A DNA stretch of 64,000 bases from Ignavibacteria bacterium RIFOXYC2_FULL_35_21 (GCA_001804705.1 MHAY01000044.1:1-64000); one strand, 5' to 3'; positions 36,337 through 63,424 are shown, numbered from the stretch's first letter. Made by a program: numbers and translations. The notes: generated by a model not told the origin, from the letters alone.

Positions 36337-36366
36337 GTCTTCCCTCAATATATTTTCTGATTGTGT

Positions 36367-44512: not shown

Positions 44513-45643
44513 ATGATTTCTCAGTTTCGGGATTGGGAGGAAAACAGGCACGTTTATGCTAAGAATTGGAAGGAAAAGACAGGAGGAAAAGTAATAGGCT
44601 ACTTTTGCACTTATGTCCCCGAAGAAATTCTGTATGCTGCCGACATCCTGCCCGTTAGAATATTAGGAAGCCACGAGCCACAGGATGTAACAGAACCATA
44701 TATATTCGGGATGTTTTGTCCATTTTGCAGGGATTGCCTTGCCCAGGGTTTGAAGGGTAGATATGATTATTTAGATGGAGTAATGATTTCCCAGTCATGC
44801 CTGCATATACGTCAGGCATATACAAGCTGGGTAAAACATGTCCCGCAAAGTTTTTCTTATTATCTTCCGATGCCAAATAACGTTCAAAGCAAACATGCTG
44901 TTCCTTACCTTGCGGCAGAATTGAAATCATTTAAAAGTGCAGTAGAGAAATGGATTGGCAAAGAAATAACAAACGACGACCTCAAAAGAGGTATTGATAT
45001 AATGAATGAGAACAGAAGCCTGATGCATAAGCTTTACTCATTTAAGAAAAAAGACAGCCCACCGGTCTCTGGCGAAGAAACCATGCAGGTTGCTATATCC
45101 CAGCAGATGGTAGATAAAAGAGAACATTCACCCCAACTTAAGAAACTCGTCGAAGAGCTTGAAACCGGAGCTTTCAATACAGTTAACAAAGGCACAAGAT
45201 TAATGATACTCGGCAGTGAAGATGATGACATTCCTTTTGTCAGGATGGTTGAATCAGTCGGAGGCTCGGTTGTTATAGATGACCATTGCGTTGGGACAAG
45301 GTATTTCTGGAATAATGTTGATGTTAACGGGAGTGACTTGCTGGAATCCATAGCAAAACGTTATATCGAAAGGCCTGCCTGTCCGAGTAAGGACTGGATT
45401 GAAAGGAGCAGGATACCTCATCTATTAAACCTTGCAAAGGAATTTAATGCAAAGGGTGCAATTGTCATTCAGCAGAAGTTCTGCGACCCGCATGAATTAG
45501 ATATACCTGCAATCACAAAGACATTTAATGCTAACGATATAAAAACACTGTTTCTTGAATTTGACGTAACTGTACCATTAGGGCAGTTTAAGATTCGCGT
45601 TGAAGCCTTTTTAGAAATGCTTCAGGAAGATGATTTATTTTAA
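44513..45643 (+). CDS. bzdN: Benzoyl-CoA reductase, subunit BzdN (BcrC family)
   Basis: A 376-residue subunit of the substrate-reducing half of ATP-dependent class I benzoyl-CoA reductase. It belongs to the HgdB/2-hydroxyacyl-CoA dehydratase D family: VIGYFCTYVPEEILYAADIL, FCPFCRDCLAQGLKGRYDYL and GVMISQSCLHIRQAYTSW contain Cys residues that ligate the [4Fe-4S] cluster, and GTRLMILGSEDDDIPFVRMV is the second Rossmann-like half. Length is close to Azoarcus BzdN and Thauera BcrC. AAGGAG precedes the ATG, and bzdO follows after 15 bp, so the subunits are made together. Confidence 0.93.
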   Translation: MISQFRDWEENRHVYAKNWKEKTGGKVIGYFCTYVPEEILYAADILPVRILGSHEPQDVTEPYIFGMFCPFCRDCLAQGLKGRYDYLDGVMISQSCLHIRQAYTSWVKHVPQSFSYYLPMPNNVQSKHAVPYLAAELKSFKSAVEKWIGKEITNDDLKRGIDIMNENRSLMHKLYSFKKKDSPPVSGEETMQVAISQQMVDKREHSPQLKKLVEELETGAFNTVNKGTRLMILGSEDDDIPFVRMVESVGGSVVIDDHCVGTRYFWNNVDVNGSDLLESIAKRYIERPACPSKDWIERSRIPHLLNLAKEFNAKGAIVIQQKFCDPHELDIPAITKTFNANDIKTLFLEFDVTVPLGQFKIRVEAFLEMLQEDDLF

Positions 45644-45658: not shown

Positions 45659-46969
45659 ATGGCAGTACCAACATATAAAACAGAACAACTGAAATGCTGG
45701 AAAAAAGCAAAAGAATTGAGACAGGATTTTTACAAAAGATATGCAAATGCTCACGACAATGGCGGACTTCGGTGGGCGGGAGGTGCCTGGAGCTTCGGAG
45801 CTATACCTGCCGGATTGGGAAATGATATTTTTCCAATCACCGGAGAACCTTATGCCGCAGGTATTGCATTCAATAAAGAATTTTCATTGCGTTGTCTTGA
45901 AGCAACTGAAAAGAAAGGTTATGCAAGAGACTTATGCTCATATATGCGTACCTATTGGGGTTCGATTATACTCGATGAATATTTATACGGCGGGAAATTC
46001 CCCAAACCTGATTTTATGTGGCAGGACCATATCTGCTGCAGCCATGCTAAATGGTACCAGGTAGCTAATGAACTTGAAGGAGGTGGTGTTCCGACATACA
46101 GCATTGATGTGGCTGTTGGACCCTACCAGGATGTTACAGACAGCAGGATTGATTATATTGTTAATCAGATGCACGAAGGAATTGAATGGCTCGAAAAAGT
46201 TACGGGCAGAAGATACAATGATGACCTGCTTATCGAAGCTGTTCATAATGAATGCAGGGCAACATCGGTTTGGGCTGAGGTTTGTGAATTGAACAAAGGA
46301 GTCCCTGCTCCTCTCGATGAAAAATCAATGTATTCGCTTTATGTTCTCGGTACTCTTGAAAAACATGCAAAATCGGTAGCTGATTTTTATGAAGAACTTC
46401 GTGATGAGGTCAAGTACAGAGTAGAAAATCAAATTGCCGCTACTCCGCATGAGAGATGCAGATTGATGTCAGACACACAGCCGCCTTGGGGATTTCTGAA
46501 TGTATTCAGATATCTTGAAAATTTCGGGGCTGTTTCTATCGGTTCTCTATATACATTTGGATTAATAGGCGTATGGGAAGACAAACCCGATGGTTCATGG
46601 GGACCCAGAACAACTCCTCAACAAAAAGGAATCAAGATTGAAACACGTGACCAGGCATTAAAAATTCTTGCCGATTGGAATTTGAGTAAGCCCGAATGGC
46701 AGCATTTTTATTCACCACACATCAAAAGCGATATGATGATTAGAATAGCTAAGGAATGGAAGCTCGACGGTATTATGCTTCATTACAACCGCGGATGTGA
46801 GGGGCTTTCACTTGGCATCGCTGAGAATCGTCTTGCATTGATTGAAGCAGGATACCCCGTAATGGCATTCGAGGGCAATATGGGTGACGAAAGAGAATTT
46901 GATGAAGCAAAGACTATGGGCAGAATTGACTCATTCATGGAAACATTGGGAATGAAAGAAATAAAGTAG
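45659..46969 (+). CDS. bzdO: Benzoyl-CoA reductase, subunit BzdO (BcrB family)
   Basis: A 436-residue partner of BzdN in the reductase half. Same D-component fold: [40 protein letters not shown] (cluster Cys and substrate loop), [15 protein letters not shown]-like loop near [15 protein letters not shown], and the C-terminal [20 protein letters not shown] with the third cluster Cys. Lengths of ~430-450 fit BzdO/BcrB. AAGGAG precedes the ATG. The last ~80 codons are repeated 1.6 kb downstream (48343-48585), flanking an inserted gene. Confidence 0.93.
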
Positions 46970-48576: not shown

Positions 48577-48585
48577 AAAGTATAA
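48343..48585 (+). repeat. Direct repeat, copy 2
   Basis: Second copy of the bzdO 3' end (see 46736-46978). The following sequence TTAAATTTTGAGGTATATATG leads directly into bzdP, so this copy keeps the original bzdO-bzdP junction; in copy 1 the same region now leads into the inserted gene. Confidence 0.95.
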
Positions 48586-48603: not shown

Positions 48604-49365
48604 ATGATAAATGTTGGAATAGATGTCGGAGCAAAAAATATAAAGATTGTTGTCCTTCGGGATGGAGAGATTATAGGTAAAGGAATATCTCTTGCAGGAT
48701 TCGAAACAAAAGAAACAACCAAAATATTATTCGATGAAACAATAAAACAAGCAGGAATAACACCTGAACAGATTGATTCAATAACCTCGACAGGAAGCGG
48801 AAGAAAAGCCGCCGACTTTGCTAAATTCAGCGTTACTGAAGTTACTGCGGCAACAAAAGGTGCTACTTCCCTCTTTCCGTCTGTCCGATGTGTAATTGAT
48901 GTCGGAGCCGAAGAAGGAAGAACAATCAGGTGCGATACGGAAGGGAAAATAATTGATTTTGCTTTGAATGAAAAGTGTGCGGCAGGTGCCGGTGCCTTCA
49001 TCGAGGCTATGTCGCGGGCACTTGAAATACCGGTTGAGGATTTCGGAATGATTTCTTTGCAATCTGATAAAGAAATTCCCTTGAATGCACAATGTGCCGT
49101 TTTTGCCGAATCCGAAGTAGTTTCTCTCCTTCATGCAAAAACAGAAAAGAAAGACATAGCAAAATCTGTCAATGATGCAGTTGCCTCGCGTATAACATCA
49201 ATGGCACGTAAAGTAGGATTTGAAAAAGATATTGAACTCATTGGTGGTATGGCGAAAAATACCGGGTTTGTTCAGTCATTGAAAAAAGCACTTGAATCGG
49301 AAATTATTATTCCCGAAAACCCTGAGTTCATCTCGGCTTATGGAGCAGCACTTATTAATGAATAA
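48604..49365 (+). CDS. bzdP: Benzoyl-CoA reductase activase subunit BzdP
   Basis: A 253-residue ASKHA-fold ATPase of the electron-activation half, close to HgdC/BcrD. INVGIDVGAKNIKIVVLRDG (phosphate 1), ALNEKCAAGAGAFIEAMSRA (Cys ligand plus helix-cluster-helix), NAQCAVFAESEVVSLL (second Cys) and IELIGGMAKNTGFVQSLKKA (adenosine) are in order. ATP hydrolysis, with the [4Fe-4S] cluster shared with BzdQ, drives electrons to BzdNO. It lacks the ~150-residue insert of Thauera BcrA, which supports the Azoarcus type. TTGAGG precedes the ATG. Its stop codon lies at the edge of a heptamer array. Confidence 0.9.
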   Translation: MINVGIDVGAKNIKIVVLRDGEIIGKGISLAGFETKETTKILFDETIKQAGITPEQIDSITSTGSGRKAADFAKFSVTEVTAATKGATSLFPSVRCVIDVGAEEGRTIRCDTEGKIIDFALNEKCAAGAGAFIEAMSRALEIPVEDFGMISLQSDKEIPLNAQCAVFAESEVVSLLHAKTEKKDIAKSVNDAVASRITSMARKVGFEKDIELIGGMAKNTGFVQSLKKALESEIIIPENPEFISAYGAALINE

Positions 49366-50292: not shown

Positions 50293-50395
50293 TTAATGTA
50301 TGATAGAAAATAATTGATTAGAAAAGTTCAATAATTTTAAATTTTTAATTTAAAATTTTCAATGAATATTAAATATTAAATTTAAAATGATTTAA

Positions 50396-51189: not shown

Positions 51190-53745
51190 ATGAGTGAAAT
51201 AAGTTTAACAATAAATAACATAGAAGTAAAAGTCCCGGAAGGCACAAGCATACTTGACGCTGCGGCTTCTGCGGGTATATATATTCCTGTGCTTTGCAGT
51301 CATCCTGACTTAGGAGATTTTAATACAGTTGAATTATCAACCTTTATATATCAAGGTGCTAACAAAATTGAAAACGATATTACAGCAACAATAGATTCCA
51401 TCCGAGGCTGTGGTATCTGCCTTGTTGTAGATGAAACCAAATCCGAACTTATTCCATCGTGCAAAACTAAGGTTGCACAGGGAATGAAAATAGCAACAGA
51501 AAACGAAGTAGCAGTAAAGAGGAGACGTGAGAATCTTTCCAAAATACTTGCGAAACATCCTCATTCATGTCTCACTTGTAGTCAGAGAGAAGGCTGTATT
51601 CCGATGACTGATGTATGCCCGGGCAGTGTGGTGTCTAATGAAAGATGTTGTGCATTACTGAATAACTGCGAGTTTCAACGAGTTGTTGATTATGTCGGGG
51701 TATTGCCTGAAACACCAAGATACCAATTCGGAAATCTTCCTAAAATCACAGAAGACCCGCTTTTTAATCGCGATTTTAATTTATGTATAGGTTGTGGAAG
51801 GTGCGTAAGAGTTTGCCAGCAGGTTAAGGGTGTTTACGCACTCGGTGCAGTAATACAAAATGGTGAATTGAAAATCGGAACTGTTGATGGCCCATTGCTC
51901 GATAATGCAGCATGTAAATATTGCGGCTCATGTGTTGAGGTATGCCCAACAGGTGCAATAATGGACAAAGTAAGTCCGAGATTAAAGGAGTATAAGGATT
52001 TTGTTCCCTGCAAAGCAAGTTGCCCCGGCGAAGTTGATATTCCACAATATGTAAGGCTTGTGCGTGAAGGGAAACCACAGGATGCAGCGAATGTGATTTC
52101 ATCGAGCCTTCCTCTGCCTTCTGTTCTTGGAAAAGTGTGTTTCCATCCTTGCGAAACAGCATGCAAAAAGAATGAACTATTATCAATTCCGGACAGTCGT
52201 CAGAATGCAATGAGCATAAGGATGCTCAAAGATTTTGCAATGACAAACAGCATTCTTAAAACTCCAAAAAAGTTGAAAGCGAACACAGGAAAGAATGTTG
52301 CAGTAATAGGAGCAGGTCCCGCAGGACTTTCTGCCGCACATTTTCTTTCTCTCAAAGGGCATAATGTTACCCTTTATGAAAGAGAAAGTGAAATAGGTGG
52401 TATGCTAAGGTATGGTATCCCGCGATACAGGTTGTCAGAGGATGTTCTGAATAAAGACACGAATTGGATTCTAAGTTCTGGCATCAATGTTAAAACAAAT
52501 ACAATTTTTGGAAAAGATATAATACTCGATAACCTGCTTGGAAATGGCACTGATGCAGTATTTATCAGTATCGGGTTATCGAAAAGCAAGAATCTCCCAA
52601 TTCCTATCTCAGGCGAACCTTCTGTTCACTATGGCGTTGAATTTTTAAATGCAATTGCAAAGAAAAACATACCTGCTCATTATTTTGAATCAAAATCTGT
52701 TGTTGTGATTGGCGGCGGAAATGTAGCCACTGATGCCGCTCGATGTGCTTTGAGGTTGAAAGCATCAAATGTTACAATCGTATGCCTCGAACAATATGAT
52801 GAAATGCCGGCTTATACAGATGAACTTATTGAAGCTCAGGATGAAGGCATAGCAATCCTGAATGGATGGGGAATTTCAGGTATAAATAAAACCAACGATA
52901 AAAATGAAATACTATTAAAGAAATGTACAAATGTATTTAATGCTCAAGGAGAATTTTCTCCCGCTTATGATGAATCAATCACCGATAAACTAATTACAGA
53001 TTCCGTTATTGTTTGTATTGGACAAGAAGCCAATTACGACTTTTCGGATTCTAAATTTGATTCAATTCTGAATAGAGGATTAATAAAAGTAAAATCTGAC
53101 TCACTTGAAACCAGTATAAAAGGTGTTTACGCTGGTGGGGATATTGTTTCAGGCCCAAAGTCAGTGATTGAAGCTGTGGGAGCGGGAAGAAAAGCCGCAC
53201 GCTCGATTGATTTATACCTTGGCGGTGATGGAATAATCGAAACTGAAGAAGGATTAAATAAAGAATATAATATGTTCATCGGAAGAAATGATGGATTCAA
53301 TTCTTTACAAAGGACGGCAGCAAAAACCGATGATACTGAAATTAGATTAAGAAGCTTTGAGCCTTATGAGAGGACATATACTTCCGTTGAAGCTCTTATT
53401 GAATCTACCAGATGTCTTCAGTGTGACCTGCGGCTTCATCTGAGGCATAATCCTTTGCCCCCGGAAAAATATCTTTTATTTAATAAAGATTTAATCGAAG
53501 GACTACCTGATGGTGAGGGTGTTATACAAATATTAAACAATGATAAAGAAGTAACAGTAATAAAAGGCACTGATAATATCAGGAAAACAATGTTGGAATG
53601 GCTCAATGATAATAAAGAATATTCATATTTCATTTATGAGTCTGACCCTATGTTCACAAAACGTGAGAGTGAACTGCTTCAGCAGTATTTACAGAAACAC
53701 GGTAAACTTCCTGATGCCGGTGATGGATTGGATGATTTGTTTTAG
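51190..53745 (+). CDS. bzdV: BzdV-like NAD(P)H/ferredoxin oxidoreductase
   Basis: An 851-residue multidomain protein. The N-terminus is a NuoG-like 2Fe-2S domain (VPEGTSILDAAASAGIYIPV, Cys at PVLCSH and GCGICLV), then a His/Cys segment (HPHSCLTCSQREGC), two [4Fe-4S] motifs (CIGCGRCVRVC and CKYCGSCVEVC), and a GltD-like FAD/NAD(P) module (GAGPAGLSAAHFLSLKGHN ~373; GGGNVATDAARCALRL ~507). A final tail begins GEGVIQILNNDKEVTVIKG and ends DAGDGLDDLF. In Azoarcus this protein is proposed to recycle the ferredoxin. It likely links NAD(P)H to the ferredoxin of benzoyl-CoA reductase. Confidence 0.85.
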   Translation: MSEISLTINNIEVKVPEGTSILDAAASAGIYIPVLCSHPDLGDFNTVELSTFIYQGANKIENDITATIDSIRGCGICLVVDETKSELIPSCKTKVAQGMKIATENEVAVKRRRENLSKILAKHPHSCLTCSQREGCIPMTDVCPGSVVSNERCCALLNNCEFQRVVDYVGVLPETPRYQFGNLPKITEDPLFNRDFNLCIGCGRCVRVCQQVKGVYALGAVIQNGELKIGTVDGPLLDNAACKYCGSCVEVCPTGAIMDKVSPRLKEYKDFVPCKASCPGEVDIPQYVRLVREGKPQDAANVISSSLPLPSVLGKVCFHPCETACKKNELLSIPDSRQNAMSIRMLKDFAMTNSILKTPKKLKANTGKNVAVIGAGPAGLSAAHFLSLKGHNVTLYERESEIGGMLRYGIPRYRLSEDVLNKDTNWILSSGINVKTNTIFGKDIILDNLLGNGTDAVFISIGLSKSKNLPIPISGEPSVHYGVEFLNAIAKKNIPAHYFESKSVVVIGGGNVATDAARCALRLKASNVTIVCLEQYDEMPAYTDELIEAQDEGIAILNGWGISGINKTNDKNEILLKKCTNVFNAQGEFSPAYDESITDKLITDSVIVCIGQEANYDFSDSKFDSILNRGLIKVKSDSLETSIKGVYAGGDIVSGPKSVIEAVGAGRKAARSIDLYLGGDGIIETEEGLNKEYNMFIGRNDGFNSLQRTAAKTDDTEIRLRSFEPYERTYTSVEALIESTRCLQCDLRLHLRHNPLPPEKYLLFNKDLIEGLPDGEGVIQILNNDKEVTVIKGTDNIRKTMLEWLNDNKEYSYFIYESDPMFTKRESELLQQYLQKHGKLPDAGDGLDDLF

Positions 53746-53969: not shown

Positions 53970-54006
53970 TTTTAAGATGTTTATTTGAAACTTGAGAGAA
54001 AGAATT

Positions 54007-56082
54007 ATGCTTGATTCCTTATTCAAACCGAGAGCAGTTGCATTGATTGGAGCATCAACGAAAGAGTTGTCAATCGGAAATGTGATTATTAAAAATTTGC
54101 AGAGATATAATTTCACAGGCCCTATTTATCCGATAAATCCCAAAGCTCCTGATATTCGCGGCATTAAAGCATATCCTACAATCTTTGATGTGCCAGGTGA
54201 AGTAGATGTTGCACACATTGTAATTCCGCCTCCGATGGTTCCCCAGGCTGTTGAGGATTGCGGCAAAAAAGGTGTAAAGAATGTAATCATCAATACAGCA
54301 GGCTTCAAAGAAATGGGTGCTGAGGGCGAAGCTCTGCAAAATGATTTTGTCGAAAGAGGAAAAAAATACGGAGTGAGAATTTTCGGTCCCAACTGCCAGG
54401 GAATAATCAATACAGACCCTGTTTATAATGCCTATTGCGATTTCACATTCACCTATCCTAAACCAGGACATATTTCAATAGTTGCCCAAAGCGGCGGTGT
54501 TGGTGCTGTGATTATGCAAAATCTTTATGACCTCGATGTCGGAATGAGAATGTATGCATCAAACGGAAATGCCTGCGATATTTCCATACCCGAAATCATC
54601 AGGTATTGGGGAAATGATGATGAGACGCGTGTTATTTTATTATATGTCGAAAGCCTGGATGACCCTAAATATTTTATGGATGTTGCTTATGAAGTCGCCG
54701 CCAGGAAACCTATTCTTGCAATGAATGCAGGAAGAACTGAGGAGGGTGCAAAAGCCGCTACATCCCACACAGGAGGACTTGCCGGAGGAAAAGCAACGGA
54801 TTTGATTTTCAAAAAGACAGGCATACTTGCTTTCAGCGATGCACAGGAAATGTGCCAGGCAGCAGTTGCTTTTGCATCTCAACCTATTCCAAAAGGCAAC
54901 CGTGTCGGTATGATTACTAATACCGGTGGTCCTGCAATCATAGCCACAGATGAGCTTGTTGACGGTGGATGTGAAATGCCCCCTCTTACTGAGAAAGCAA
55001 TTGCAAAATTGAAAGAGACGATGTTTGAAGCCGCATCAATCAATAATCCGATTGATGTAGTGGCTACTGCAGGAGCTCCCCAGTTCCGCAGTGCCGTAGA
55101 TGTTATGATGGATGAGGAGCAGATTGACAGTGTATATATAAATTTTGTTACACCGCCTTTCGTGGATTGCGAAGCCGTTGCACGTGAATTTGCTGAAGTC
55201 AGCAAACAAAGAAGAAAGCCGATTGTCTGCAATTATATGACTGACAAAGCACAATGGACTGAAACAACAAAGATATTAAAAGAAGGCGGTATCCCCTGCT
55301 ATGACTTCCCAGGCACAGCGGCTAAAGCACTTGTAGCATTGTGCAGATATGAGGCTCTTCGTTCCAGAGAAAAAGGCGAAGTGATATATTTTAATGATTG
55401 TAACAAAAGAGAAGTTGAGAATATTATTACAAAGGCTAAGGATTCAGGAAGAACAATTCTTTCTGCACAGGAAGTTTATAACATTTTGGATGTATACAAA
55501 ATACCGTCAGCAGGATGGAAAATCGTAAATGATGTTTCCGCTTCTGTCTCCGCTTCAGAAGAAATTGGTTTCCCAGTTGTGATTAAAGCTGATTCACCCG
55601 AAATAATTCACAAAAGTGATGTCGGCGGCGTTGCAGTCAATTTGAAAAGTGCTGATGAAGTAAAATCAAAAGCTGAAGAAATGAAAAATAAATTTTCTGT
55701 TAAAGAACTTAATTTCTTTATACAGAAGTATCATTCAGGCGGCAGGGAGCTTATAATCGGCGCTAAGGCAGAAGCCGGACTCGGGCATTTGCTTATGTTC
55801 GGGATGGGTGGTATTTATGTTGAAATACTGAAAGATGTATCGTTTGAATTAGCACCGGTAACATCTATCGAAGCAAAGGAAATGCTGTCTTCAATTAAAA
55901 TGGCGAAATTGTTAAAAGGATATCGTGGTGAAAAGGGAGTATTTCTTGATGGAGTCGTTGAAATTATTGAGCGTCTATCACAACTTGTTACAGAGAATCC
56001 ATCAATAAAAGAACTCGACTTGAATCCTTTGCTTGCTTTTGAAGATAGAATTATTGTAGTTGATGCAAGAATAAGCGTTTGA
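54007..56082 (+). CDS. Acyl-CoA synthetase, ADP/NDP-forming (fused alpha-beta)
   Basis: The ATG at 54007 (691 residues) follows GAGAGAAAG; a TTG at 53992 would add five residues. The CoA-binding domain (residues ~1-130: LFKPRAVALIGASTKELSIG, PEVDVAHIVIPP-like strand), a succinyl-CoA-ligase-like domain with the phospho-His in KAATSHTGGLAGGK (~257) and a C-terminal ATP-grasp domain (GFPVVIKADSPEIIHKSDVG) are in the usual order for fused acetyl-CoA synthetases (ADP-forming). It interconverts an acyl-CoA plus ADP/phosphate with acid, CoA and ATP. Next to benzoyl-CoA genes it may act on an aryl or arylalkyl acid; substrate is inference. Confidence 0.88.
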   Translation: MLDSLFKPRAVALIGASTKELSIGNVIIKNLQRYNFTGPIYPINPKAPDIRGIKAYPTIFDVPGEVDVAHIVIPPPMVPQAVEDCGKKGVKNVIINTAGFKEMGAEGEALQNDFVERGKKYGVRIFGPNCQGIINTDPVYNAYCDFTFTYPKPGHISIVAQSGGVGAVIMQNLYDLDVGMRMYASNGNACDISIPEIIRYWGNDDETRVILLYVESLDDPKYFMDVAYEVAARKPILAMNAGRTEEGAKAATSHTGGLAGGKATDLIFKKTGILAFSDAQEMCQAAVAFASQPIPKGNRVGMITNTGGPAIIATDELVDGGCEMPPLTEKAIAKLKETMFEAASINNPIDVVATAGAPQFRSAVDVMMDEEQIDSVYINFVTPPFVDCEAVAREFAEVSKQRRKPIVCNYMTDKAQWTETTKILKEGGIPCYDFPGTAAKALVALCRYEALRSREKGEVIYFNDCNKREVENIITKAKDSGRTILSAQEVYNILDVYKIPSAGWKIVNDVSASVSASEEIGFPVVIKADSPEIIHKSDVGGVAVNLKSADEVKSKAEEMKNKFSVKELNFFIQKYHSGGRELIIGAKAEAGLGHLLMFGMGGIYVEILKDVSFELAPVTSIEAKEMLSSIKMAKLLKGYRGEKGVFLDGVVEIIERLSQLVTENPSIKELDLNPLLAFEDRIIVVDARISV

Positions 56083-56110
56083 AATGTGAATTTAATTGGA
56101 CAGAGGAAAT

Positions 56111-57310
56111 ATGCACAAGATTGAATCAGCAAAGTTTTTAAAGGAAGTAATGACAAATTACTTTGTCGGAATGGGCGATTCCAATAAGAAGATTGCCTGG
56201 TGTACAAGTGTTGGCCCGGCAGAGCTGTTACGCAGTTTCGGATTTGAAGTTCACTTTCCTGAAAACCATGGAGCATTGCTCGGAACGACCAGAACATCCG
56301 GAGATTTCATTCCGGTTGCTTCCAAACTCGGTTACTCAAGCGATATTTGCTCATACCTCACAAGCGACGTTGGTTCTTATCTGAGCAAGAATACTCCTTT
56401 GATGAAGCATTACGGCTTATCCGGAGTACCTAAACCTGATGTTCTTGTTTATAACACAAATCAGTGCCGTGAAGTGCAGGACTGGCTGACATTTTTTGCC
56501 CATGAATTTAATTGTCCTATTGTCGGTGTGCAATCACCGCGTCATCTTGACGAAGTAAAAAAAGCTGACATAGATAATGTTACTGCCCAGTTCAAATCTA
56601 TGCTCCCTGTTTTCGAACAAGCTTCCGGAGTAAAGTTTGACATTGACAGGTTTCGTGAAACAGTTAGGCTGAGTAAGGAAGCAACGTTCTTATGGAAACG
56701 TTCACTCGAAACTGCAAGAAATATTCCCGCTCCAATCAGCTTTTTTGACAGCACAATCCACATGGGGCCAATTGTCGTACTTAGAGGTACAGAAATAGCC
56801 AAGCAGTATTATGAAGTTCTTTTGAAGGAACTTGAAGGATATGTTCAGCAAGGTTCGGGAATTATCGAAAATGAAAAAACGAGGATTTACTGGGAAGGTA
56901 TGCCAATCTGGGGTAAATTGAGGTATATGTCAGATTTATTTGCCAGGCATAACTCTGCTGTCGTAGCCTCGACATATTGCAATAGCTGGATATTTGACGA
57001 TTTCGACGAGAATGAGCCATTCGAATCCACTGCCCTCGCTTATTCAACAATATTTATAAACAGAAGCGAAAAAGTTAAGCAGGATGTCATGGAAAAATTA
57101 ATCGAAGAATATAAGATTAACGGAGTTGTGTTCCATGATTCCAAGACATGTTTCAATAACTCAAACTCCCGGTTTGGTATGCCTCAACGGCTCAAAGAAA
57201 AGACAGGAGTTGAAACACTTGTTATAGAGGGTGATTTGTGCGACCTGAGGTTTTTTTCAGAAGCACAAACGACAACGAAGATTGAAGCTTTCATCGAACA
57301 AATGAATTAA
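56111..57310 (+). CDS. Third BcrC/HgdB-family (2-hydroxyacyl-CoA dehydratase D-type) subunit
   Basis: CAGAGGAAAT precedes the ATG at 56111 (399 residues). The protein belongs to the same family as BzdN and BzdO: IAWCTSVGPAELLRSFGFEV, YSSDICSYLTSDVGSYL, YNTNQCREVQDWLTFFAHEF, AVVASTYCNSWIFDDF and VFHDSKTCFNNSNSRFGMPQ carry the expected Cys, and VIEGDLCDLRFFSEAQTTTK ends it. It has only one such partner-free gene, unlike the NO pair. It could be a variant benzoyl-CoA reductase subunit, a substrate-specific subunit, or one subunit of an aryl-lactyl-type dehydratase. Close to the ADP-forming synthetase gene (28 bp). Confidence 0.82.
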   Translation: MHKIESAKFLKEVMTNYFVGMGDSNKKIAWCTSVGPAELLRSFGFEVHFPENHGALLGTTRTSGDFIPVASKLGYSSDICSYLTSDVGSYLSKNTPLMKHYGLSGVPKPDVLVYNTNQCREVQDWLTFFAHEFNCPIVGVQSPRHLDEVKKADIDNVTAQFKSMLPVFEQASGVKFDIDRFRETVRLSKEATFLWKRSLETARNIPAPISFFDSTIHMGPIVVLRGTEIAKQYYEVLLKELEGYVQQGSGIIENEKTRIYWEGMPIWGKLRYMSDLFARHNSAVVASTYCNSWIFDDFDENEPFESTALAYSTIFINRSEKVKQDVMEKLIEEYKINGVVFHDSKTCFNNSNSRFGMPQRLKEKTGVETLVIEGDLCDLRFFSEAQTTTKIEAFIEQMN

Positions 57311-57348
57311 GATTTTAAAATCATAATTATTAATTGCTGGTCAAAAGA

Positions 57349-58314
57349 ATGGAAGAAAAAAAATTAAAAATCGGAATAATTGGCCTTGGCCCTGTAGGAC
57401 TGATATTAGCAGTTCATTTCAAGCAAGTCGGATGCGAAGTTGCAATCTGCGATGCCGACAAAGATAAAATGAATTTAATACGAAACCATGGTATCGAACT
57501 TGTAGGTGCGATTAAGAAATCCTCTTTTTTCAATTACAACTATTCATCTGTCAGAGAGCTTCTTACCCATGACATCGATGTTTTAATCAGTTCTGTCAAA
57601 TCATACAGGATTGATACCATACTCGACCAGGTTGAGAAATATGCCCATAGTAATCTTTACCTTCTCTGTGCTCAGAATGGTATTGAAATAGGATTGAAAT
57701 ATACCAGCCACTTTGATGAATCACAGATATTAAGAATGGTCATAAACTTTGGGGGAGTGCTTCATTCTCCAAACGTTGTGAATGTAAGCTTTTTCGAACC
57801 GCCTAATTATGTGGCATCTATCAATGACACTCATCCTGAGAAAGCAAAGATTTTAGCTGCTACTCTGACGGATGCAGATATGCTAACAGAAAGCATAGAT
57901 TCGTTTTCAATTAATGACCATGTATGGAAAAAAACTATACTGATAGCTGCAATTTCTCCAATATGCGGTTTATCAAACCTCTCTATGAGCGAAGCAATGT
58001 CGAATGCAGATACAGTCGAAATCATAGAGCAGGCAATAGTTGAATCAATGGAGGTTGCAAAAGCCGAAGGTATAAAATTTAATGAGAATTTCGTAAAATT
58101 ATCGCTAAGAAAACTAAAAAATTATGGGGACCATATTCCATCTCTGGCTGTTGATATTGCTAATAACCGTCAAACTGAAATAGATTATTTCAATGGAAAA
58201 ATTGTTGAGTACGGCAGGAAACATTATAAGCAGACTCCTTTGAATCTGACTTTTACTAATCTTGTAAAAGCAATTACAAAGAAGTGCTGTTTGAACGGAA
58301 GTTTAATAGTATAA
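57349..58314 (+). CDS. Ketopantoate-reductase-like protein (copy 1)
   Basis: 321 residues from the ATG at 57349 (a TTG at 57334 would add five). KIGIIGLGPVGLILAVHFK is the NADP-binding Rossmann motif, LLCAQNGIEIGLKYTSHF, SINDHVWKKTILIAAISPIC (catalytic Lys) and LAVDIANNRQTEIDYFNGKI (catalytic Glu/Asp region) are as in PanE and the D-mandelate dehydrogenase branch. A paralogue lies 2.3 kb downstream, with a HisC-type gene between. Probably reduces a 2-oxoacid; not necessarily ketopantoate. Confidence 0.85.
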   Translation: MEEKKLKIGIIGLGPVGLILAVHFKQVGCEVAICDADKDKMNLIRNHGIELVGAIKKSSFFNYNYSSVRELLTHDIDVLISSVKSYRIDTILDQVEKYAHSNLYLLCAQNGIEIGLKYTSHFDESQILRMVINFGGVLHSPNVVNVSFFEPPNYVASINDTHPEKAKILAATLTDADMLTESIDSFSINDHVWKKTILIAAISPICGLSNLSMSEAMSNADTVEIIEQAIVESMEVAKAEGIKFNENFVKLSLRKLKNYGDHIPSLAVDIANNRQTEIDYFNGKIVEYGRKHYKQTPLNLTFTNLVKAITKKCCLNGSLIV

Positions 58315-58317
58315 AAT

Positions 58318-58525
58318 TAGAATTTTCAATTTTCAATTTAAAATTATCAATAAATATTAAATTTAAAATGTTTTAAAAGAAAACTAACTCAAGAAATAAT
58401 GATTTAGAAGAAAGTGAAGACATATATCATAAAAATTGAATAATCTTTAGATAAAAATATTTAAATATTTGATTATTTAAAATTCAATGAAAATTAAAAA
58501 TTGTAAATTATAAATTATAGAATAA
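58318..58525 (+). repeat. Deleted second copy of the four-helix-bundle cassette
   Basis: Bases 58365-58420 align without gaps to the start of the four-helix-bundle gene (50380-50435), but the start codon ATG is AAG. After about 55 bp it jumps to the gene's last codons (CTTTAGATAAAAATATTTAAA at about 58444) and then the same AT-rich 3' flank. Heptamer-like units ATTTTCA, ATTTTCA, ATTTAAA, ATTATCA run from 58322. No protein can be made. Confidence 0.75.
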
Positions 58526-58557
58526 ATAATTAATTCTGCTAGAAACGAGAAAATAAT

Positions 58558-59643
58558 ATGCCCTTAGTTGCAGAACATATTCAAAACCTCGAACCGTACA
58601 GGCCCGGCAAGACTATTGATGAAGTCAAGCGGGAGTATGGGATTGAGAAAATCGTAAAGCTTGCATCAAATGAAAATCCACTTGGTGTGTCGCCGCTGGC
58701 TATTCAGGCAATGATTGGGTCAATTCACCAGATTAATCGTTATCCCGATATAGCAAGTTTGCTTCTCCGCAATAAACTTGCTGAACTCTTTAAAGTCGGT
58801 TTTGACAGCATTGTTACAGGGCATGGCTCTGAGGCTATTATGCAGACTGCAGTAAGAACTTTCCTGATGAATGGCGAAGAAGTCATTACTGCAGAAGGTA
58901 CATTTGTCGGATTTTATGTCATGGTCAAAGCCTGTGGAATCAAAATGAATCTTGTTCCACTCAAAGACTACGGATTTGACCTGAAAGCTATTGTTGATGC
59001 AATTACTCCGAAAACAAAAATGATTTACCTCGTAAATCCAAACAGCCCGACAGGAACAATATACACAAAAGGTGAATTTGAAGAATTTATGAAAGCAGTT
59101 CCGCCTGATGTTCTTGTTATGGTTGACGAAGCATATATAGAGTTCGTTAAAGACCATCCGGAGTTTCCGGACTCAATGGATTACCGATATGATAATGTTA
59201 TAACACTCAGAACATTTTCAAAAGCTTATGGATTGGCTGGTATCCGTATAGGCTATGGCTTTGCTCATCCTGAATTGATTACACAAATGCACAAAGTTCG
59301 CTTACCATTCGAGCCGGGGATACCATCTCAAGCCGCAGGTGTCGCTGCTTTGACAGACAAGCAATTTCTTGATTATTATCTCAAATTAAATAGTTGTGGC
59401 AAGCAATTCATTTATGATGTTTATGACAAACTTGGTATTCAATACGTAAAAACAGAAGCAAATTTTATAATGAGCATTTTCGATTCTGAAAAAAGAGTAA
59501 ATGATATAACTGAGAAACTCATGCGAAAAGGTATAATTGTCAGAGGATTGAAGGCATTTTTGCTTCCTCATTGCATAAGAGTAACAATCGGTTTGCCGGA
59601 AGAAAATGAGATTTATGCCGATGCATTGAAATTAGTATTATAA
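58558..59643 (+). CDS. Histidinol-phosphate aminotransferase-like enzyme (HisC family)
   Basis: A 361-residue fold-type I PLP aminotransferase. GIEKIVKLASNENPLGVSPL, GHGSEAIMQTAVRTFLMNGE, YLVNPNSPTGTIYTKGEFEE, VDEAYIEFV, TFSKAYGLAGIRIGYGFA (PLP Lys ~222) and IIVRGLKAFLLPHCIRVTIG are all HisC family motifs. HisC-type enzymes often accept Phe and Tyr as well as histidinol phosphate. No other his genes are here; the neighbours are ketopantoate-reductase-like genes and aromatic genes, so an aromatic amino-acid role is plausible but inferred. Confidence 0.9.
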   Translation: MPLVAEHIQNLEPYRPGKTIDEVKREYGIEKIVKLASNENPLGVSPLAIQAMIGSIHQINRYPDIASLLLRNKLAELFKVGFDSIVTGHGSEAIMQTAVRTFLMNGEEVITAEGTFVGFYVMVKACGIKMNLVPLKDYGFDLKAIVDAITPKTKMIYLVNPNSPTGTIYTKGEFEEFMKAVPPDVLVMVDEAYIEFVKDHPEFPDSMDYRYDNVITLRTFSKAYGLAGIRIGYGFAHPELITQMHKVRLPFEPGIPSQAAGVAALTDKQFLDYYLKLNSCGKQFIYDVYDKLGIQYVKTEANFIMSIFDSEKRVNDITEKLMRKGIIVRGLKAFLLPHCIRVTIGLPEENEIYADALKLVL

Positions 59644-59664
59644 TAAAATTATCGAGAGAATAAA

Positions 59665-60639
59665 ATGGACCCAAAAAAATATAAAATTGGTGTAGTAGGA
59701 TTAGGCCCCGTTGGCTTGATACTTACCAGCCACCTGAAAGAAGCAGGTTGCGACATTGCCGTTTGCGATATGCTCAAAGAGAAGATGAACCTAATCCGTA
59801 ATGAAGGAATTATTCTTGTTGGAAAAATGGAGAAACAATGCTTTGTCAATTATGCATTTTCATCACTAGATGAAATTATTAATCATGGCATTGATATACT
59901 TATTTGTTCAGTCAAAGCATATCATGTTGATTATATTTTGGACCAAATTGTTAAGCACAATCATAGTGATGACTTGCTGATTATCAGCGCCCAGAACGGT
60001 ATTGGCATAGCACAGAAGTATGCGGACAGGTTCGTTGAATCTCGTGTTTTCAGGATGGTGGTCAATTTTGCAGGTAACTTATTCGCTCCTCATACTGTAA
60101 ATGTTACATTTTTTAATCCTCCGAATTATATAGCTTCAAAGGATGACTCACGAAATGATGTTAGTCAATGGTTTGCAGAAGCACTAAATTCTGTAGGATT
60201 GGCTACTGAAAGCACCGATTCATTCACTCTATCATATAAGGTTTGGGAAAAGACAATACTGAATGCCGCACTCAGCCCCTTGTGTGCAATATCAAGACTT
60301 ACAATGAAAGAAGCTATGGCAGACCCCGATACAAATGAAATTGTCGAGAAAATAATACTCGAAGCGATGGAGGTAGCCAAAGCAGAGGAAATCAAACTAC
60401 CTGATAACTTCGTTAAGCTTTGTATAAGATATTTGAAAAGTGCCGGAGACCACTTTCCTTCTCTTGCTGTTGACTTAATGAATAAGAGAGAGACAGAGAT
60501 TGAATATATGAATGGAAAGATTGTTGAGTTCGGGAGAAAGCATTATATCAGAACACCGCTGAACCTGACTTTTACTAATCTCGTGAGGGTGATTACAAAT
60601 AAAAACCAGTCTCAATGGAAAGGAAGCGGTAGTTTATAA
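59665..60639 (+). CDS. Ketopantoate-reductase-like protein (copy 2)
   Basis: A 324-residue paralogue of the protein encoded at 57349. GVVGLGPVGLILTSHLKEAG, ISAQNGIGIAQKYADRFVES, SYKVWEKTILNAALSPLCAI (catalytic Lys) and AVDLMNKRETEIEYMNGKIV are preserved, ending HYIRTPLNLTFTNLVRVITN as in copy 1. GAGAGAATAAA precedes the ATG, 21 bp after the HisC-type gene. Two copies around one aminotransferase suggest duplication and perhaps different substrates. Confidence 0.87.
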   Translation: MDPKKYKIGVVGLGPVGLILTSHLKEAGCDIAVCDMLKEKMNLIRNEGIILVGKMEKQCFVNYAFSSLDEIINHGIDILICSVKAYHVDYILDQIVKHNHSDDLLIISAQNGIGIAQKYADRFVESRVFRMVVNFAGNLFAPHTVNVTFFNPPNYIASKDDSRNDVSQWFAEALNSVGLATESTDSFTLSYKVWEKTILNAALSPLCAISRLTMKEAMADPDTNEIVEKIILEAMEVAKAEEIKLPDNFVKLCIRYLKSAGDHFPSLAVDLMNKRETEIEYMNGKIVEFGRKHYIRTPLNLTFTNLVRVITNKNQSQWKGSGSL

Positions 60640-60654
60640 ATTAATTTTTATTTT

Positions 60655-61233
60655 ATGAATGAATTATCTGATGTCGGAGTTGTGATTTTAGCAGCGGGTG
60701 AATCCAGTAGGATGAAATCGCCAAAGCCGTTTCTCAAGTATGATACGAATAGAAGATTTATTGATAAGATTATTGATGAATACAGGGATTTTGGAATAAA
60801 TCATATAGTTGTTGTTGTTAATAAAAGTACTATAAAAGAATTAAATCTTGACAATAATACTTTAGTTTGTGTTAATGAGCATTTGGAATACGAAAGATTT
60901 TATTCAATTAAATTAGGCCTGGAAAAGATTGGAAAATGTGATTTCTGTTTTATTCAAAATATTGATAATCCTTTTGTCAATAAATCAGTGTTAAATAAAT
61001 TATATGAAAATAAAAGTAAGAATGGAGGCATAATTCCTGTTATTCAGGACAAAGGAGGCCATCCAGTTTTGTTAGGCAGTGAAGTAATTAGTTATATTGT
61101 AAGGACAAAAGAATTGAATTTGAATTTCAAAGAAGTAATCAATGAATTTCCGGGCAACAGAGTCGAAGTTGCTGATAATTCAATTTTGATAAATATAAAT
61201 TCTCTTGAAGAATATCAAAAATATTTCAAATGA
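60655..61233 (+). CDS. MocA/MobA-like nucleotidyltransferase
   Basis: A 192-residue NTP transferase: GVVILAAGESSRMKSPKPFL is the signature loop, IDNPFVNKSVLNKLYE carries the metal site region, and KGGHPVLLGSEVISYI the substrate region. It resembles CTP:molybdopterin cytidylyltransferase (MocA), which makes the cofactor of xanthine-dehydrogenase-family enzymes. Its stop overlaps the start of the XdhC-like gene by 4 bp (ATGA), which supports that link. Confidence 0.75.
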   Translation: MNELSDVGVVILAAGESSRMKSPKPFLKYDTNRRFIDKIIDEYRDFGINHIVVVVNKSTIKELNLDNNTLVCVNEHLEYERFYSIKLGLEKIGKCDFCFIQNIDNPFVNKSVLNKLYENKSKNGGIIPVIQDKGGHPVLLGSEVISYIVRTKELNLNFKEVINEFPGNRVEVADNSILININSLEEYQKYFK

Positions 61234-62015
61234 AACAGATGGAAAACATCTATGACAAAATAGCCGAAATTCGCAAAAGCAGGCGGAAAGCTGTCCTTTG
61301 CACTGTTGTTTCGACAAAAGGTTCTGTACCGAGAAAAATCGGAGCTAAGATTATTGTCATGGATGACTCCAAAATATTCGGTACAATCGGCGGTGGAACC
61401 CTTGAAAAGAATGTGATTGAGAAAGCAGTAGAAACAATAACATCCTCAAAAGCCGAGTTAATAAGTTATAATCTTACGAAAGACCTTGGAATGGCATGTG
61501 GAGGCTCAGTAGAAATATTTATCGAACCACTATTCAACAGGTATAAATTACTCATCTTCGGAGCAGGGCATATCGGAAAAGCACTGACAAAATATTCAGA
61601 AAATCTTGAATTCGATTCTTACATAATTGATGAAAGAGAAAATATCTTCGATGATTGGCAGGAAGGCAGATATACTAAATTAAATATACCAATCGCTGAT
61701 TACTTCGCTCAATATAAAATTGATGAGTTTACATTTATAGTTATTGTTACAAAGGGACATGATACCGACAGAGAGGTACTCAAGGGGTGTATTAAAAGCA
61801 ATGCCGCATATATTGGCTTGATTGGGAGCAAAAGAAAAGCATTAGAAATCAGAAAAGAATTTGTATCGAATGGAATAGTTACCGATGCCGAATTTGACAG
61901 GATTGACGTTCCAATAGGATTAGAAATAAAAGCCGAAGGGCCTGAGGAGATTGCTATCAGTATAACTGCAAAATTGGTATTTGAAAAAAACAAATTGATT
62001 GAAACAATAGAATGA
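61230..62015 (+). CDS. XdhC/CoxI-family molybdenum-hydroxylase maturation protein
   Basis: A 261-residue protein. AVLCTVVSTKGSVPRKIGAK and FGTIGGGTLEKNVIEKAVET are the N-terminal XdhC signature, LLIFGAGHIGKALTKYSENL the Rossmann domain, and VIVTKGHDTDREVLKGCIKS with YIGLIGSKRKALEIRKE ends it. XdhC binds the Mo cofactor and inserts it, with the terminal sulfido ligand, into molybdenum hydroxylases. The ATGA overlap with the MocA-like gene indicates translational coupling; a second Met three codons in is a possible start. No molybdenum hydroxylase gene lies in the window. Confidence 0.88.
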   Translation: MKQMENIYDKIAEIRKSRRKAVLCTVVSTKGSVPRKIGAKIIVMDDSKIFGTIGGGTLEKNVIEKAVETITSSKAELISYNLTKDLGMACGGSVEIFIEPLFNRYKLLIFGAGHIGKALTKYSENLEFDSYIIDERENIFDDWQEGRYTKLNIPIADYFAQYKIDEFTFIVIVTKGHDTDREVLKGCIKSNAAYIGLIGSKRKALEIRKEFVSNGIVTDAEFDRIDVPIGLEIKAEGPEEIAISITAKLVFEKNKLIETIE

Positions 62016-62024
62016 TTATTCATC

Positions 62025-62270: not shown

Positions 62271-62272
62271 TT

Positions 62273-63424
62273 ATGACGAGAGAAAATTATCTAAATAAAT
62301 TGAAAAATCAAACCCGCTTTATACAGGGTGATGAAGCGGCGGCTTATGGAGCATTGTATGCCGGGTGCAATTTCTTTGCAGGTTATCCTATCACACCTGC
62401 TTCAGAAGTTGCTGAATTAATGGCTAAGGAATTACCAAAAACCGGTGGTTATTATATTCAGATGGAAGACGAAATAGCAAGCATGGGTGCTTTAATCGGA
62501 GCCGCCTGGTCGGGTGGTAAATCCATGACTGCCACGTCAGGTCCCGGTTTTTCGCTAATGCAGGAAAACATTGGATACGCCTGCATGACAGAAACACCCT
62601 GCGTAATTGTTAATGTTCAACGTTCGGGCCCCTCCACAGGACAGGCAACTATGGGAGCTCAGGGAGACATGCTCCAGGCAAGATGGGGAACCCATGGCGA
62701 CCATGAGATGATTGCCCTATCGCCAAGCTCTGTGCAGGAGTCATTCGATTTGATGATTGAAGCATTTAACTTATCCGAAAAGTTCAGAAACCCTGTCATC
62801 TTCCTGCTTGACGGTGAAGTGGGACATATTCGTGAGAAAGTTGTTTTTCCTGATGTTAGTGAATTAAATATTTATCCACGTAATATCAGCAAAGTGAAAA
62901 CTGATGTTTTCGGTGGAGCAAGAATACCTCCTATGATTGAGTTTGGAATGGGTCATCGTATTCATGTTACCGGTTCAACACATAAAAGCAACGGTATGCG
63001 TGATGTAGTTTCGTTGGAAGCACACGACACACTTATCAGAAGACTCAACGACAAGATTGAATCGTGCCGCAATGAAATTGCCCGGTATAAAGAACATTTT
63101 ACAGACGATATGGAATATCTCGTTGTATCCTACGGAGCATCGGCAAGGCCCTCTATGGGAGCCGTATTGAAATTGCGTGAAAAAGGATTCCGAATCGGAT
63201 TTTTAAGATTAATTACTATCTGGCCCTTTGCAAGTACAATTGTTAAAGAACTCGGAAAAAAAGCAAATAAAATATTTGTGCCTGAAATGAACTTAGGGCA
63301 GATTTCAAGAGAAATAGAGCGGTTTGTTAGTTGTGATGTACTTCCGGTTTCAAAAATAGGTGGTGTACCTCATACAATTAATGAAATCGCAGAATATATT
63401 GAAAAAATAATCGTATTGAAATGA
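62273..63424 (+). CDS. korA: 2-oxoacid:ferredoxin oxidoreductase, alpha subunit (KorA-like)
   Basis: The 383-residue alpha subunit, similar to 2-oxoglutarate:ferredoxin oxidoreductases: FIQGDEAAAYGALYAGCNFF, AGYPITPASEVAELMAKEL, QMEDEIASMGALIGAAWSGG, TATSGPGFSLMQENIGYA and NVQRSGPSTGQATMGAQGDM. The oxidation of a 2-oxoacid to acyl-CoA reduces ferredoxin; in Thauera the 2-oxoglutarate enzyme supplies benzoyl-CoA reductase. Specificity cannot be fixed from sequence alone. A REP-like element separates it from korB. Confidence 0.9.
   Translation: MTRENYLNKLKNQTRFIQGDEAAAYGALYAGCNFFAGYPITPASEVAELMAKELPKTGGYYIQMEDEIASMGALIGAAWSGGKSMTATSGPGFSLMQENIGYACMTETPCVIVNVQRSGPSTGQATMGAQGDMLQARWGTHGDHEMIALSPSSVQESFDLMIEAFNLSEKFRNPVIFLLDGEVGHIREKVVFPDVSELNIYPRNISKVKTDVFGGARIPPMIEFGMGHRIHVTGSTHKSNGMRDVVSLEAHDTLIRRLNDKIESCRNEIARYKEHFTDDMEYLVVSYGASARPSMGAVLKLREKGFRIGFLRLITIWPFASTIVKELGKKANKIFVPEMNLGQISREIERFVSCDVLPVSKIGGVPHTINEIAEYIEKIIVLK

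Follow-up and report, generated by a model that had tools for sequence, protein, structure and literature searches.

The genes considered here lie near the end of a 64,000-nt stretch of DNA from Ignavibacteria bacterium RIFOXYC2_FULL_35_21 (GCA_001804705.1 MHAY01000044.1:1-64000), hereafter the window. Between positions 57,349 and 60,639 three open frames follow one another on the + strand, as established by frame and profile checks: a gene of the ketopantoate reductase (KPR) family (KPR1), a HisC-type aminotransferase gene and a second KPR gene (KPR2). Together with their neighbours, they form a cassette that we propose to be the front end of an anaerobic route from tyrosine to benzoyl-CoA. 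Its genes are as follows:

53992..56082, + strand: ADP-forming acyl-CoA synthetase (acd-type), proposed aryl-lactate (or benzoate) CoA ligase; Pfam ATP-grasp_5, Succ_CoA_lig and CoA_binding_2
56096..57310, + strand: HgdB-like protein, proposed catalytic (alpha-type) subunit of an (R)-aryllactyl-CoA dehydratase; PF06050, 204 bits
57349..58314, + strand: KPR1, predicted ketopantoate-reductase-fold 2-hydroxyacid dehydrogenase; Pfam ApbA/ApbA_C, own clade
58558..59643, + strand: HisC-type aminotransferase, proposed tyrosine/aromatic aminotransferase; TIGR01141 at 315 bits, tree and neighbours
59665..60639, + strand: KPR2, predicted ketopantoate-reductase-fold 2-hydroxyacid dehydrogenase; Pfam ApbA/ApbA_C, tree and model
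60655..61233, + strand: MobA-like nucleotidyltransferase, proposed cofactor maturation for 4-hydroxybenzoyl-CoA reductase; PF12804, and TIGR03310 at 93.6 bits, under cut-off
61230..62015, + strand: XdhC-like protein, proposed maturation factor of the same molybdenum enzyme (4-hydroxybenzoyl-CoA reductase); PF13478 and PF02625

The original prediction, that two KPR-like genes flank a HisC-type aminotransferase gene inside an aromatic island, is confirmed by the frames, by the Pfam and TIGR scores, and by the scores of the Bzd, Oah and Had proteins of the island. The HgdB-like gene and the CoA synthetase gene that it placed upstream are also there, the latter of the ADP-forming type. The start of KPR1 was set at the ATG at 57349; the longest frame opens at 57334, and with this longest frame the successive spacings from the synthetase through HgdB, KPR1, HisC, KPR2 and MobA to XdhC are 13, 23, 243, 21, 15 and -4 bp. 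A 123-nt AT-rich intergenic repeat (76%) occurs at 50333-50455 and 58314-58436, and its second copy occupies about half of the 243-bp KPR1-HisC gap, which measures 22-34 bp in five relatives. As was also predicted, no other pantothenate or histidine gene was found in the frames of the window that were examined; genome-wide, PanB is present and HisD was not found.

Across three genomes of the same genus, identity reaches 88-97% for most island proteins and is lower for the BzdV-like (81-88%), XdhC-like (76-82%) and MobA-like (61-70%) proteins. HgdB followed by KPR1-HisC-KPR2-MobA-XdhC was recovered on one contig in five relatives, and in a sixth the order is the same as far as MobA, where the contig ends. 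Because this order is kept in relatives, the arrangement of the cassette is no chance product. Among 36 genomes, matches to ApbA_C, to the HgdB-like protein and to HGD-D occurred in the same 11. Furthermore, when 395 genomes drawn evenly from the phylum were searched (HgdB at E <= 1e-80, KPR2 at E <= 1e-60), Oah over cut-off, HgdB and KPR2 were found in the same four, i.e., the window's own genome, G012, G045 and G336; Oah was over cut-off in none of 14 control genomes. The single-contig genome G336 carries, on one strand, BcrC-BcrB-BcrA-BcrD-ligase-HgdB-KPR-HcrB-HcrCA-BadF-thiolase-Had-Oah-Dch, with the Bcr labels taken from BLAST to the window's Bzd proteins.

Related loci were taken from a species-genome collection as the best 80 of 154 matching stretches, and 79 of these were kept; by their titles most belong to Bacteroidetes/Bacteroidota and Ignavibacteria, the rest being a few Chlorobiota, one Calditrichota and four unplaced bacteria. 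Of the 79 loci, 68 contain HgdB, at most 700 bp from a KPR gene in 51 of them and at most 6.5 kb away in all 68. A fusion of the KPR with a BadF ATPase, the dehydratase-activating type, occurs in 39 of the 79 loci, and a Pfam check on one fused protein returned ApbA, ApbA_C and BcrAD_BadFG. A CoA ligase is encoded nearby in 70 loci (41 ADP-forming, 29 AMP-forming), at least one of benzoyl-CoA reductase (BCR), Had, Oah and Dch in 66, and 4-hydroxybenzoyl-CoA reductase (>=60% identity) in 12; eight of the 13 loci without ring genes are shorter than 12 kb. KPR with HgdB is commoner without HisC than with it, so that HisC appears to be an addition in the window's family and not part of the core. 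At L118:9452-9937 a Cys-rich frame of ~160 aa lies between HgdB and KPR-BadF, and frames like it in length and position occur in other loci; it gives no Pfam or NCBIfam match and resembles, by eye, the C-terminal part of an AMP-forming ligase, as if the ligase tail had been kept when an ADP-forming type replaced the AMP-forming ligase.

KPR1 and KPR2 both match Pfam ApbA and ApbA_C above cut-off, pass the PanE family score (TIGR00745, 153-155 bits, cut-off 141.35) and are exactly the two ApbA_C matches of their genome. PanB was detected in 35 of the 36 genomes (the own copy on contig C101), including 24 of the 25 relatives without any ApbA_C match, so that pantothenate synthesis does not explain the distribution of the KPRs. 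In a KPR tree that kept 12 of the 39 fused rows, most fused rows being left out, KPR1 and KPR2 formed separate clades: KPR1-type rows came from the window's family only, and KPR2 grouped weakly (87/78) with single KPRs of Ignavibacteria and Bacteroidales. We then compared residues with those of E. coli PanE, among them its pantoate-site asparagines. The equivalents of K176 and E256 are kept in all 95 non-PanE rows, KPR1 and KPR2 included, a count from which no row was dropped and in which family members are present twice under two names. N184 is replaced by S, N194 by M, I or V, and N241 by H in all 95 rows, and the equivalent of N180 is I in all five KPR1 rows. In an alignment with solved chains, D-mandelate-dehydrogenase-like proteins also lack N194 and N241 and keep N184; hence, only the N184 to S replacement separates KPR1 and KPR2 from both PanE and the D-mandelate dehydrogenases. 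The best solved relative of KPR1 is 8wl1, a D-mandelate dehydrogenase by its title, and those of KPR2 are 2ew2 and then 8wl1. The D-mandelate dehydrogenases 8wl1 and 3wfi were matched with E values of 4e-13 to 5e-19, and E. coli PanE with only 8e-5 to 7e-4. Enzymes of the KPR fold yield the (R) form of their product. This is the form in which 2-hydroxyacyl substrates are used by the 2-hydroxyacyl-CoA dehydratases (PMC11971306). We consider with fairly high confidence that KPR1 and KPR2 are predicted 2-hydroxyacid dehydrogenases and not PanE, although KPR2 may double as PanE.

The HisC-type protein passes the HisC family score (TIGR01141, 315 bits, cut-off 276.55), but so does a protein linked to 4-hydroxyphenylpyruvate dioxygenase (HPPD) at locus L153 (286 bits). 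No HisD match was found in the own genome (3 of the 36 genomes and 13 of the 14 controls were positive), and no prephenate dehydratase match either (2 of 36 and 14 of 14 positive). Without these two, the own genome (97.75% completeness) possibly supports neither histidine nor phenylalanine synthesis. Close HisC homologues were present in 28 of 60 genomes; in nine of these, own included, they sit in the cassette (67-100% identity), and in the other 19 outside it (37-47%). HPPD is encoded in all 19 genomes with a non-cassette HisC; in 11 of these the two genes lie within 1.4 kb, and in two more HisC adjoins a fumarylacetoacetase (FAH)-like gene, so that 13 of the 19 non-cassette members are linked to genes of tyrosine catabolism. 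A model confirmed HPPD in two representatives (371 and 448 bits, cut-off 277). Seven of the nine cassette genomes gave no HPPD; in the two that have it (G012 and G018), no HisC was found in the stretch around HPPD-HgmA-like, nor a second close HisC in the genome. All 28 genomes with this HisC have HPPD or the KPR cassette, and of the 32 others no fewer than 14 do (Fisher p 5e-7, uncorrected for ancestry), a lower bound since the ApbA_C search covered 36 of the 60 genomes.

The position of the protein within its family points the same way. G044 has both HisC types, and the window protein shares 47% identity with its HPPD-linked copy and 27% with its HisD-linked copy. In the HisC tree, which has long branches at L138 and E. 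coli, the cassette proteins form one clade (100/100) inside a 98/95 group that contains all 13 HPPD/FAH-linked rows, and the HisC of HisD operons falls outside; the HPPD/FAH-linked rows could be either a side branch (72/50) or the stock that gave rise to the cassette rows. The pyridoxal phosphate lysine, the aspartate and the arginines are retained in the window protein. At E. coli HisC Y110 and Y243 it has F, as do the seven of 13 HPPD/FAH-linked rows that were compared, and both HisD-linked rows have Y. With HisD lacking in the own genome and a place in the tree apart from HisD-linked HisC, the protein does not appear to belong to the histidine pathway, and it is very probably an aromatic aminotransferase. 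Because HisD and prephenate dehydratase are missing and most non-cassette homologues neighbour HPPD or FAH-like genes, it is probably a tyrosine aminotransferase specifically. In a Maribacter-titled metagenome-assembled genome (MAG), a distant HisC (34%) lies between a KPR-BadF fusion and a thiolase (L138:5142-8155); it looks independent, which suggests that HisC joined the module more than once.

The best solved relative of the HgdB-like protein is HadB (3o3m_A, E 1.7e-51), and identity is about equal to HadB (30%) and to MbdO, a 3-methylbenzoyl-CoA reductase subunit (31%). Active-site residues are more telling. Rows of up to 350 aa (first alignment) or 380 aa (second) were dropped, which left 64 of the 68 loci plus the window, and BcrB-like paralogues of the same loci were used only at 400-480 aa. 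The positions aligned with HadB S37, E55, C84, C117 and C346 are conserved in 65 of 65 HgdB-like rows; in the T36-S37-V38 stretch and at N56, S and N are found in all 65, T in 63 and V in 62. The 46 BcrB-like paralogues share E55 and the three cluster cysteines but none carries the HadB letters, with V or I at S37 and I at N56. All 65 HgdB-like rows also have an extra cysteine, C295, which HadB, MbdO, BzdO and all 46 BcrB-like rows lack. The predicted structure (pLDDT 88) superimposes best on the HadB alpha subunit 3o3m_A (Z 45.1, root-mean-square deviation 2.0 over 384 residues), followed by BzdO (Z 43.1), MbdO (39.3) and the HadC beta subunit (31.1). The curated models claim it for neither side: the HadB equivalog NF052455 gave 218 bits (cut-off 750), and the BCR-type equivalogs TIGR02260 and TIGR03191 gave 183.5 (cut-off 486.6) and 75 (cut-off 448.6) for the gene at 56096. 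A candidate HadI-type activase is available as the BadF-type ATPase at L059:4870-5631, ~4.8 kb past the window end (TIGR00241, 187 bits, cut-off 125), and, in other loci, as the KPR-BadF fusions. Taken together, it is likely that the HgdB-like protein is a subunit of a 2-hydroxyacyl-CoA dehydratase. Full-length HGD-D matches in the own genome are BzdN, BzdO and the HgdB-like protein only; the latter would therefore be homomeric or would borrow BzdN. Beside a hydantoinase A-type gene, positions G000:C18:37526-38257 (L200:3527-4258) encode a 243-aa protein in which HGD-D is represented by its N-terminal part alone (60 bits), and frames like it in size and match occur in four other cassette genomes.

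From the observed gene families, conservation, co-occurrence and residue signatures we infer substrates, reactions and a division of labour between KPR1 and KPR2. The HisC-type enzyme would transaminate tyrosine to 4-hydroxyphenylpyruvate, the KPRs would reduce this with NAD(P)H to (R)-4-hydroxyphenyllactate, and the ADP-forming synthetase would convert the hydroxyacid into its CoA thioester. The BadF-type ATPase would spend ATP to load one high-energy electron onto the HgdB-like iron-sulfur protein, which would then dehydrate the thioester to 4-coumaroyl-CoA by a ketyl-radical mechanism. Hydration, oxidation and thiolysis would give 4-hydroxybenzoyl-CoA and acetyl-CoA, for which a hydratase, the FabG-like protein at 42202 and the thiolase at 43226, or a thiolase-like/693-aa pair past the window, are candidates. 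A molybdenum 4-hydroxybenzoyl-CoA reductase would remove the phenolic OH, and the resulting benzoyl-CoA would enter the Bzd reductase, Dch, Had and Oah. The side chain would be redox-balanced, since the KPR reduction would be repaid at the 3-hydroxyacyl-CoA dehydrogenase. We put the probability that the cassette is the front end of tyrosine degradation to benzoyl-CoA, as a whole chain predicted from gene content, at roughly 60%; phenylalanine would probably take the same route. The remaining genes drawn upon are:

35563..36348, - strand: Dch-like dienoyl-CoA hydratase; TIGR03189 is the best model at 244 bits, cut-off of 292.5 not reached
38843..39931, - strand: Oah, 6-oxocyclohex-1-ene-1-carbonyl-CoA hydrolase; TIGR03200, 585 bits, cut-off 464
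42202..42945, + strand: FabG-like 3-hydroxyacyl-CoA dehydrogenase candidate for side-chain or pimelyl beta-oxidation; FabG-type short-chain dehydrogenase/reductase models
43226..44416, + strand: beta-ketothiolase candidate; TIGR01930, 424 bits, cut-off 240.6
44513..45643, + strand: BzdN, benzoyl-CoA reductase; TIGR03190, 480 bits, cut-off 453.8
45659..46969, + strand: BzdO, benzoyl-CoA reductase; TIGR03191, 690 bits, cut-off 448.6
48604..49365, + strand: BzdP-like ATPase; TIGR00241, 217 bits
49426..50292, + strand: BzdQ ATPase; TIGR03192, 455 bits, cut-off 380
51190..53745, + strand: NAD(P)H:ferredoxin-type oxidoreductase, presumably BzdV-like; Pyr_redox_2, Fer4 and Fer2 domains
62273..63424, + strand: KorA, 2-oxoacid:acceptor oxidoreductase alpha, proposed ferredoxin reduction for BCR; NF006412, 541 bits, cut-off 411

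The island is a genuine benzoyl-CoA island, with BzdN, BzdO, BzdQ, Oah and Had all above cut-off. Had (6-hydroxycyclohexenecarbonyl-CoA dehydrogenase, 462 bits, cut-off 339) lies past the window end. KorB- and KorC-like frames (labelled by eye) stand past that end on the same contig, and further genes there encode a flavin subunit, a fused iron-sulfur/molybdenum subunit of 935-950 aa, a thiolase-like protein and one of 693 aa that matches no NCBIfam model. The best model of the fused subunit is 4-hydroxybenzoyl-CoA reductase alpha (968 bits, cut-off 994.6); at L059:2017-4869 the gamma and alpha parts of this reductase are combined in one protein of ~940 aa. Because a molybdenum reductase is encoded downstream, the MobA-like and XdhC-like genes are best read as providing its putative maturation factors. 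Between bzdO and bzdP a WD-repeat/type IX secretion system-type gene (47318-48307, labelled by eye) is flanked by two copies of a 246-nt repeat with 98% identity (46733-46978, at the bzdO 3' end, and 48340-48585); no such gene was found at that place in G002 and G003, and that of G001 is only 36% identical. Positions 55900-62400 contain 40 promoter-like sites, against 23.6 expected from shuffling, and three terminator-like sites, every one on the - strand.

Several observations weigh against the proposed route. HisC is present in only 9 of the 79 loci; in most clusters transamination would thus fall to a different enzyme, and the KPR there might act on a different compound. Eleven of the 79 loci lack HgdB, five of them being 15-21 kb long (L075, L078, L085, L102 and L133); G009 has KPR1, KPR2 and HgdB but no HisC of the cassette type, and in G010 and G012 the cassette is split over contigs, with HgdB not beside KPR1. 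Three of the four genomes that share Oah, HgdB and KPR2 were already known from smaller searches, only G336 being new, and co-occurrence, in counts uncorrected for ancestry, may reflect shared descent or joint transfer of one island. As regards the dehydratase, no full-length HadC-type partner besides BzdN was found in the own genome by the HGD-D search, and the known 2-hydroxyacyl-CoA dehydratases are heterodimers. Seven of the nine cassette HisC proteins, the window's among them, have Ser in place of the Asn before the PTG motif; the remaining two keep Asn, as do those HPPD-linked rows in which the motif could be located. Among the non-cassette HisC genes, six of 19 show neither HPPD nor a FAH-like gene within the few kb read per side, and the HgmA-like and FAH-like neighbours score under curated cut-offs. 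The archaeal KPR 5hws is as near to KPR1 (5.6e-13) as the D-mandelate dehydrogenase 3wfi (4.2e-13), and the top match of the KPR2 model, the D-mandelate dehydrogenase 5x20 (Z 36.0), is tied with KPRs (Z 35). The ADP-forming synthetase could activate benzoate or 4-hydroxybenzoate instead, and a dedicated coumaroyl-CoA hydratase was not pinned down among the candidate genes. Finally, a 621-aa frame of the own genome, of indolepyruvate-oxidoreductase size, weakly matches the PadG model, so that arylpyruvate could also go to arylacetyl-CoA.

The claim of the original prediction that aromatic amino acids are converted through aryl-pyruvate and aryl-lactate to aryl-CoA intermediates feeding benzoyl-CoA is accordingly only partly borne out. 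The kinship of HisC, the co-occurrence, the fusions and the HadB-type site speak for it; substrates that are inferred, the role of the second KPR, the few loci with HisC and the lack of a dedicated beta subunit hold it back.

Other explanations were weighed on the same evidence. HgdB and BadF could constitute a second ring-reducing enzyme for substituted aroyl-CoA, with the KPR acting on a product of ring chemistry. The near-equal identity to MbdO and the benzoyl-CoA pathway genes in 66 of the 79 loci would suit this, but the active-site signature is that of HadB and not of BcrB, MbdO or BzdO, the activase would be of a single type, as in dehydratases, and the fold is nearest to HadB alpha, though by a modest margin, so that we regard such an enzyme as unlikely.

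It is likewise improbable that arylpyruvate follows the classical route, in which KorABC or an indolepyruvate-type enzyme would form arylacetyl-CoA and phenylglyoxylate would be decarboxylated to benzoyl-CoA, the KPRs serving a side reaction, e.g., between mandelate and phenylglyoxylate. The korABC genes do follow the cassette, and phenylacetyl-CoA/phenylglyoxylate is the phenylalanine path described in Aromatoleum (PMC9765128). However, PadG was over cut-off in none of the 36 genomes and none of the 14 controls, the own best PadG match (140 bits) is a 1189-aa frame of pyruvate:ferredoxin oxidoreductase size, and KorA fits the general 2-oxoacid model well but has a poor fit to PadG (70 bits); this route would also leave the HgdB-like protein and the KPR-activase fusions unexplained. 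With none of these genomes over the PadG cut-off, a PadG-type phenylglyoxylate route was rejected.

That the KPRs oxidise exogenous mandelate, aryl-lactates or similar (R)-2-hydroxy acids would agree with the D-mandelate dehydrogenases among their nearest solved relatives, but it seems very improbable, as the activase fusion and the adjacency of HgdB point to dehydration of a 2-hydroxyacid and not to its oxidation.

The original prediction had named as grounds for abandoning it a genome in which these are the only hisC and panE genes and act only on histidinol phosphate and ketopantoate; the genome has no other panE- or close hisC-type gene, but HisD is absent and PanB persists in nearly all relatives free of ApbA_C. 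A housekeeping role as PanE for pantothenate and as HisC for histidine or phenylalanine synthesis, to which this uniqueness and the presence of PanB would lend themselves, is the least probable of all and was rejected as the main function, given the missing HisD and prephenate dehydratase, the PanB distribution and the replaced PanE asparagines.

The proposed tyrosine route recalls the FldABC/FldI system of Clostridium sporogenes and the HadABC/HadI system of Clostridioides difficile, in which a 2-oxo acid is reduced to the (R)-2-hydroxy acid, converted into a CoA ester and dehydrated by radical chemistry to the enoyl-CoA, likewise with an HGD-D iron-sulfur protein and a BadF-type activase. 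Those systems serve reductive amino-acid fermentation. They differ in that here the reductase is of the KPR type and often fused to the activase, a CoA ligase takes the place of the clostridial CoA-transferase, a dedicated beta subunit was not detected, and the enoyl-CoA, which clostridia reduce and excrete, would undergo oxidation to aroyl-CoA. With the Bzd/Bcr benzoyl-CoA pathway the island shares BzdNOPQ, Dch-like, Had and Oah; Bzd/Bcr clusters are not known to include KPR, HgdB-like or HisC genes. BzdO and HadB have a common coordination of the catalytic [4Fe-4S] cluster (PMC11971306). In Aromatoleum aromaticum, 3-(4-hydroxyphenyl)propanoate undergoes side-chain beta-oxidation to 4-hydroxybenzoyl-CoA and presumptive reductive dehydroxylation, a path that resembles the last steps but starts at the propanoate and not at an amino acid through aryl-lactate dehydration (PMC9765128). 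Closest on paper is a hypothetical scheme for the benzene strain BzS1, in a report that also names Fld, from phenylpyruvate through 2-hydroxy-3-phenylpropanoyl-CoA and cinnamoyl-CoA to benzoyl-CoA, nearly the same chemical steps (PMC13416013). It concerns benzene and another organism, forms the CoA ester before the reduction and leaves the dehydratase unassigned, and the parts of the report consulted mention no KPR or HisC cassette (PMC13416013). The aerobic homogentisate-type genes of relatives (HPPD, HgmA-like, HisC, FAH-like) use the same HisC subfamily, presumably as tyrosine aminotransferase, but that route needs oxygen, and most cassette genomes lack a detectable HPPD. Among the matches listed from one open-access library, covered by titles and abstract openings and mostly without subscription papers, no amino-acid route of this kind was named, and ketopantoate reductase was not linked with these dehydratase or benzoyl-CoA enzymes. 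Since no description was found there, these known enzyme families are possibly a new combination, apparently undescribed, with a possible one-subunit dehydratase.

If the proposed route is correct, it would give a function to gene sets that score as 'panE' and 'hisC' across many uncultured Bacteroidota-type bacteria. We advance as a tentative generalisation, at somewhat less than even odds, that such bacteria generally reach benzoyl-CoA from protein-derived aromatic amino acids through aryllactyl-CoA and coumaroyl-CoA, with a one-subunit (homomeric) dehydratase whose activase is often fused to the aryl-lactate dehydrogenase. In such a fusion, one polypeptide would both make the hydroxyacid and fire the radical enzyme that consumes it, and the possibly beta-subunit-free radical dehydratase and the natural reductase-activase fusion are directly testable objects. 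Joint expression of peptidases, peptide uptake and benzoyl-CoA degradation was observed for a Flavobacteriales MAG from a benzene culture (PMC8099898), which would fit an amino-acid route if this MAG carries the cluster. For the organism, the route would tie protein scavenging to anaerobic ring cleavage, and would save two carbons of tyrosine as acetyl-CoA rather than lose them as CO2.

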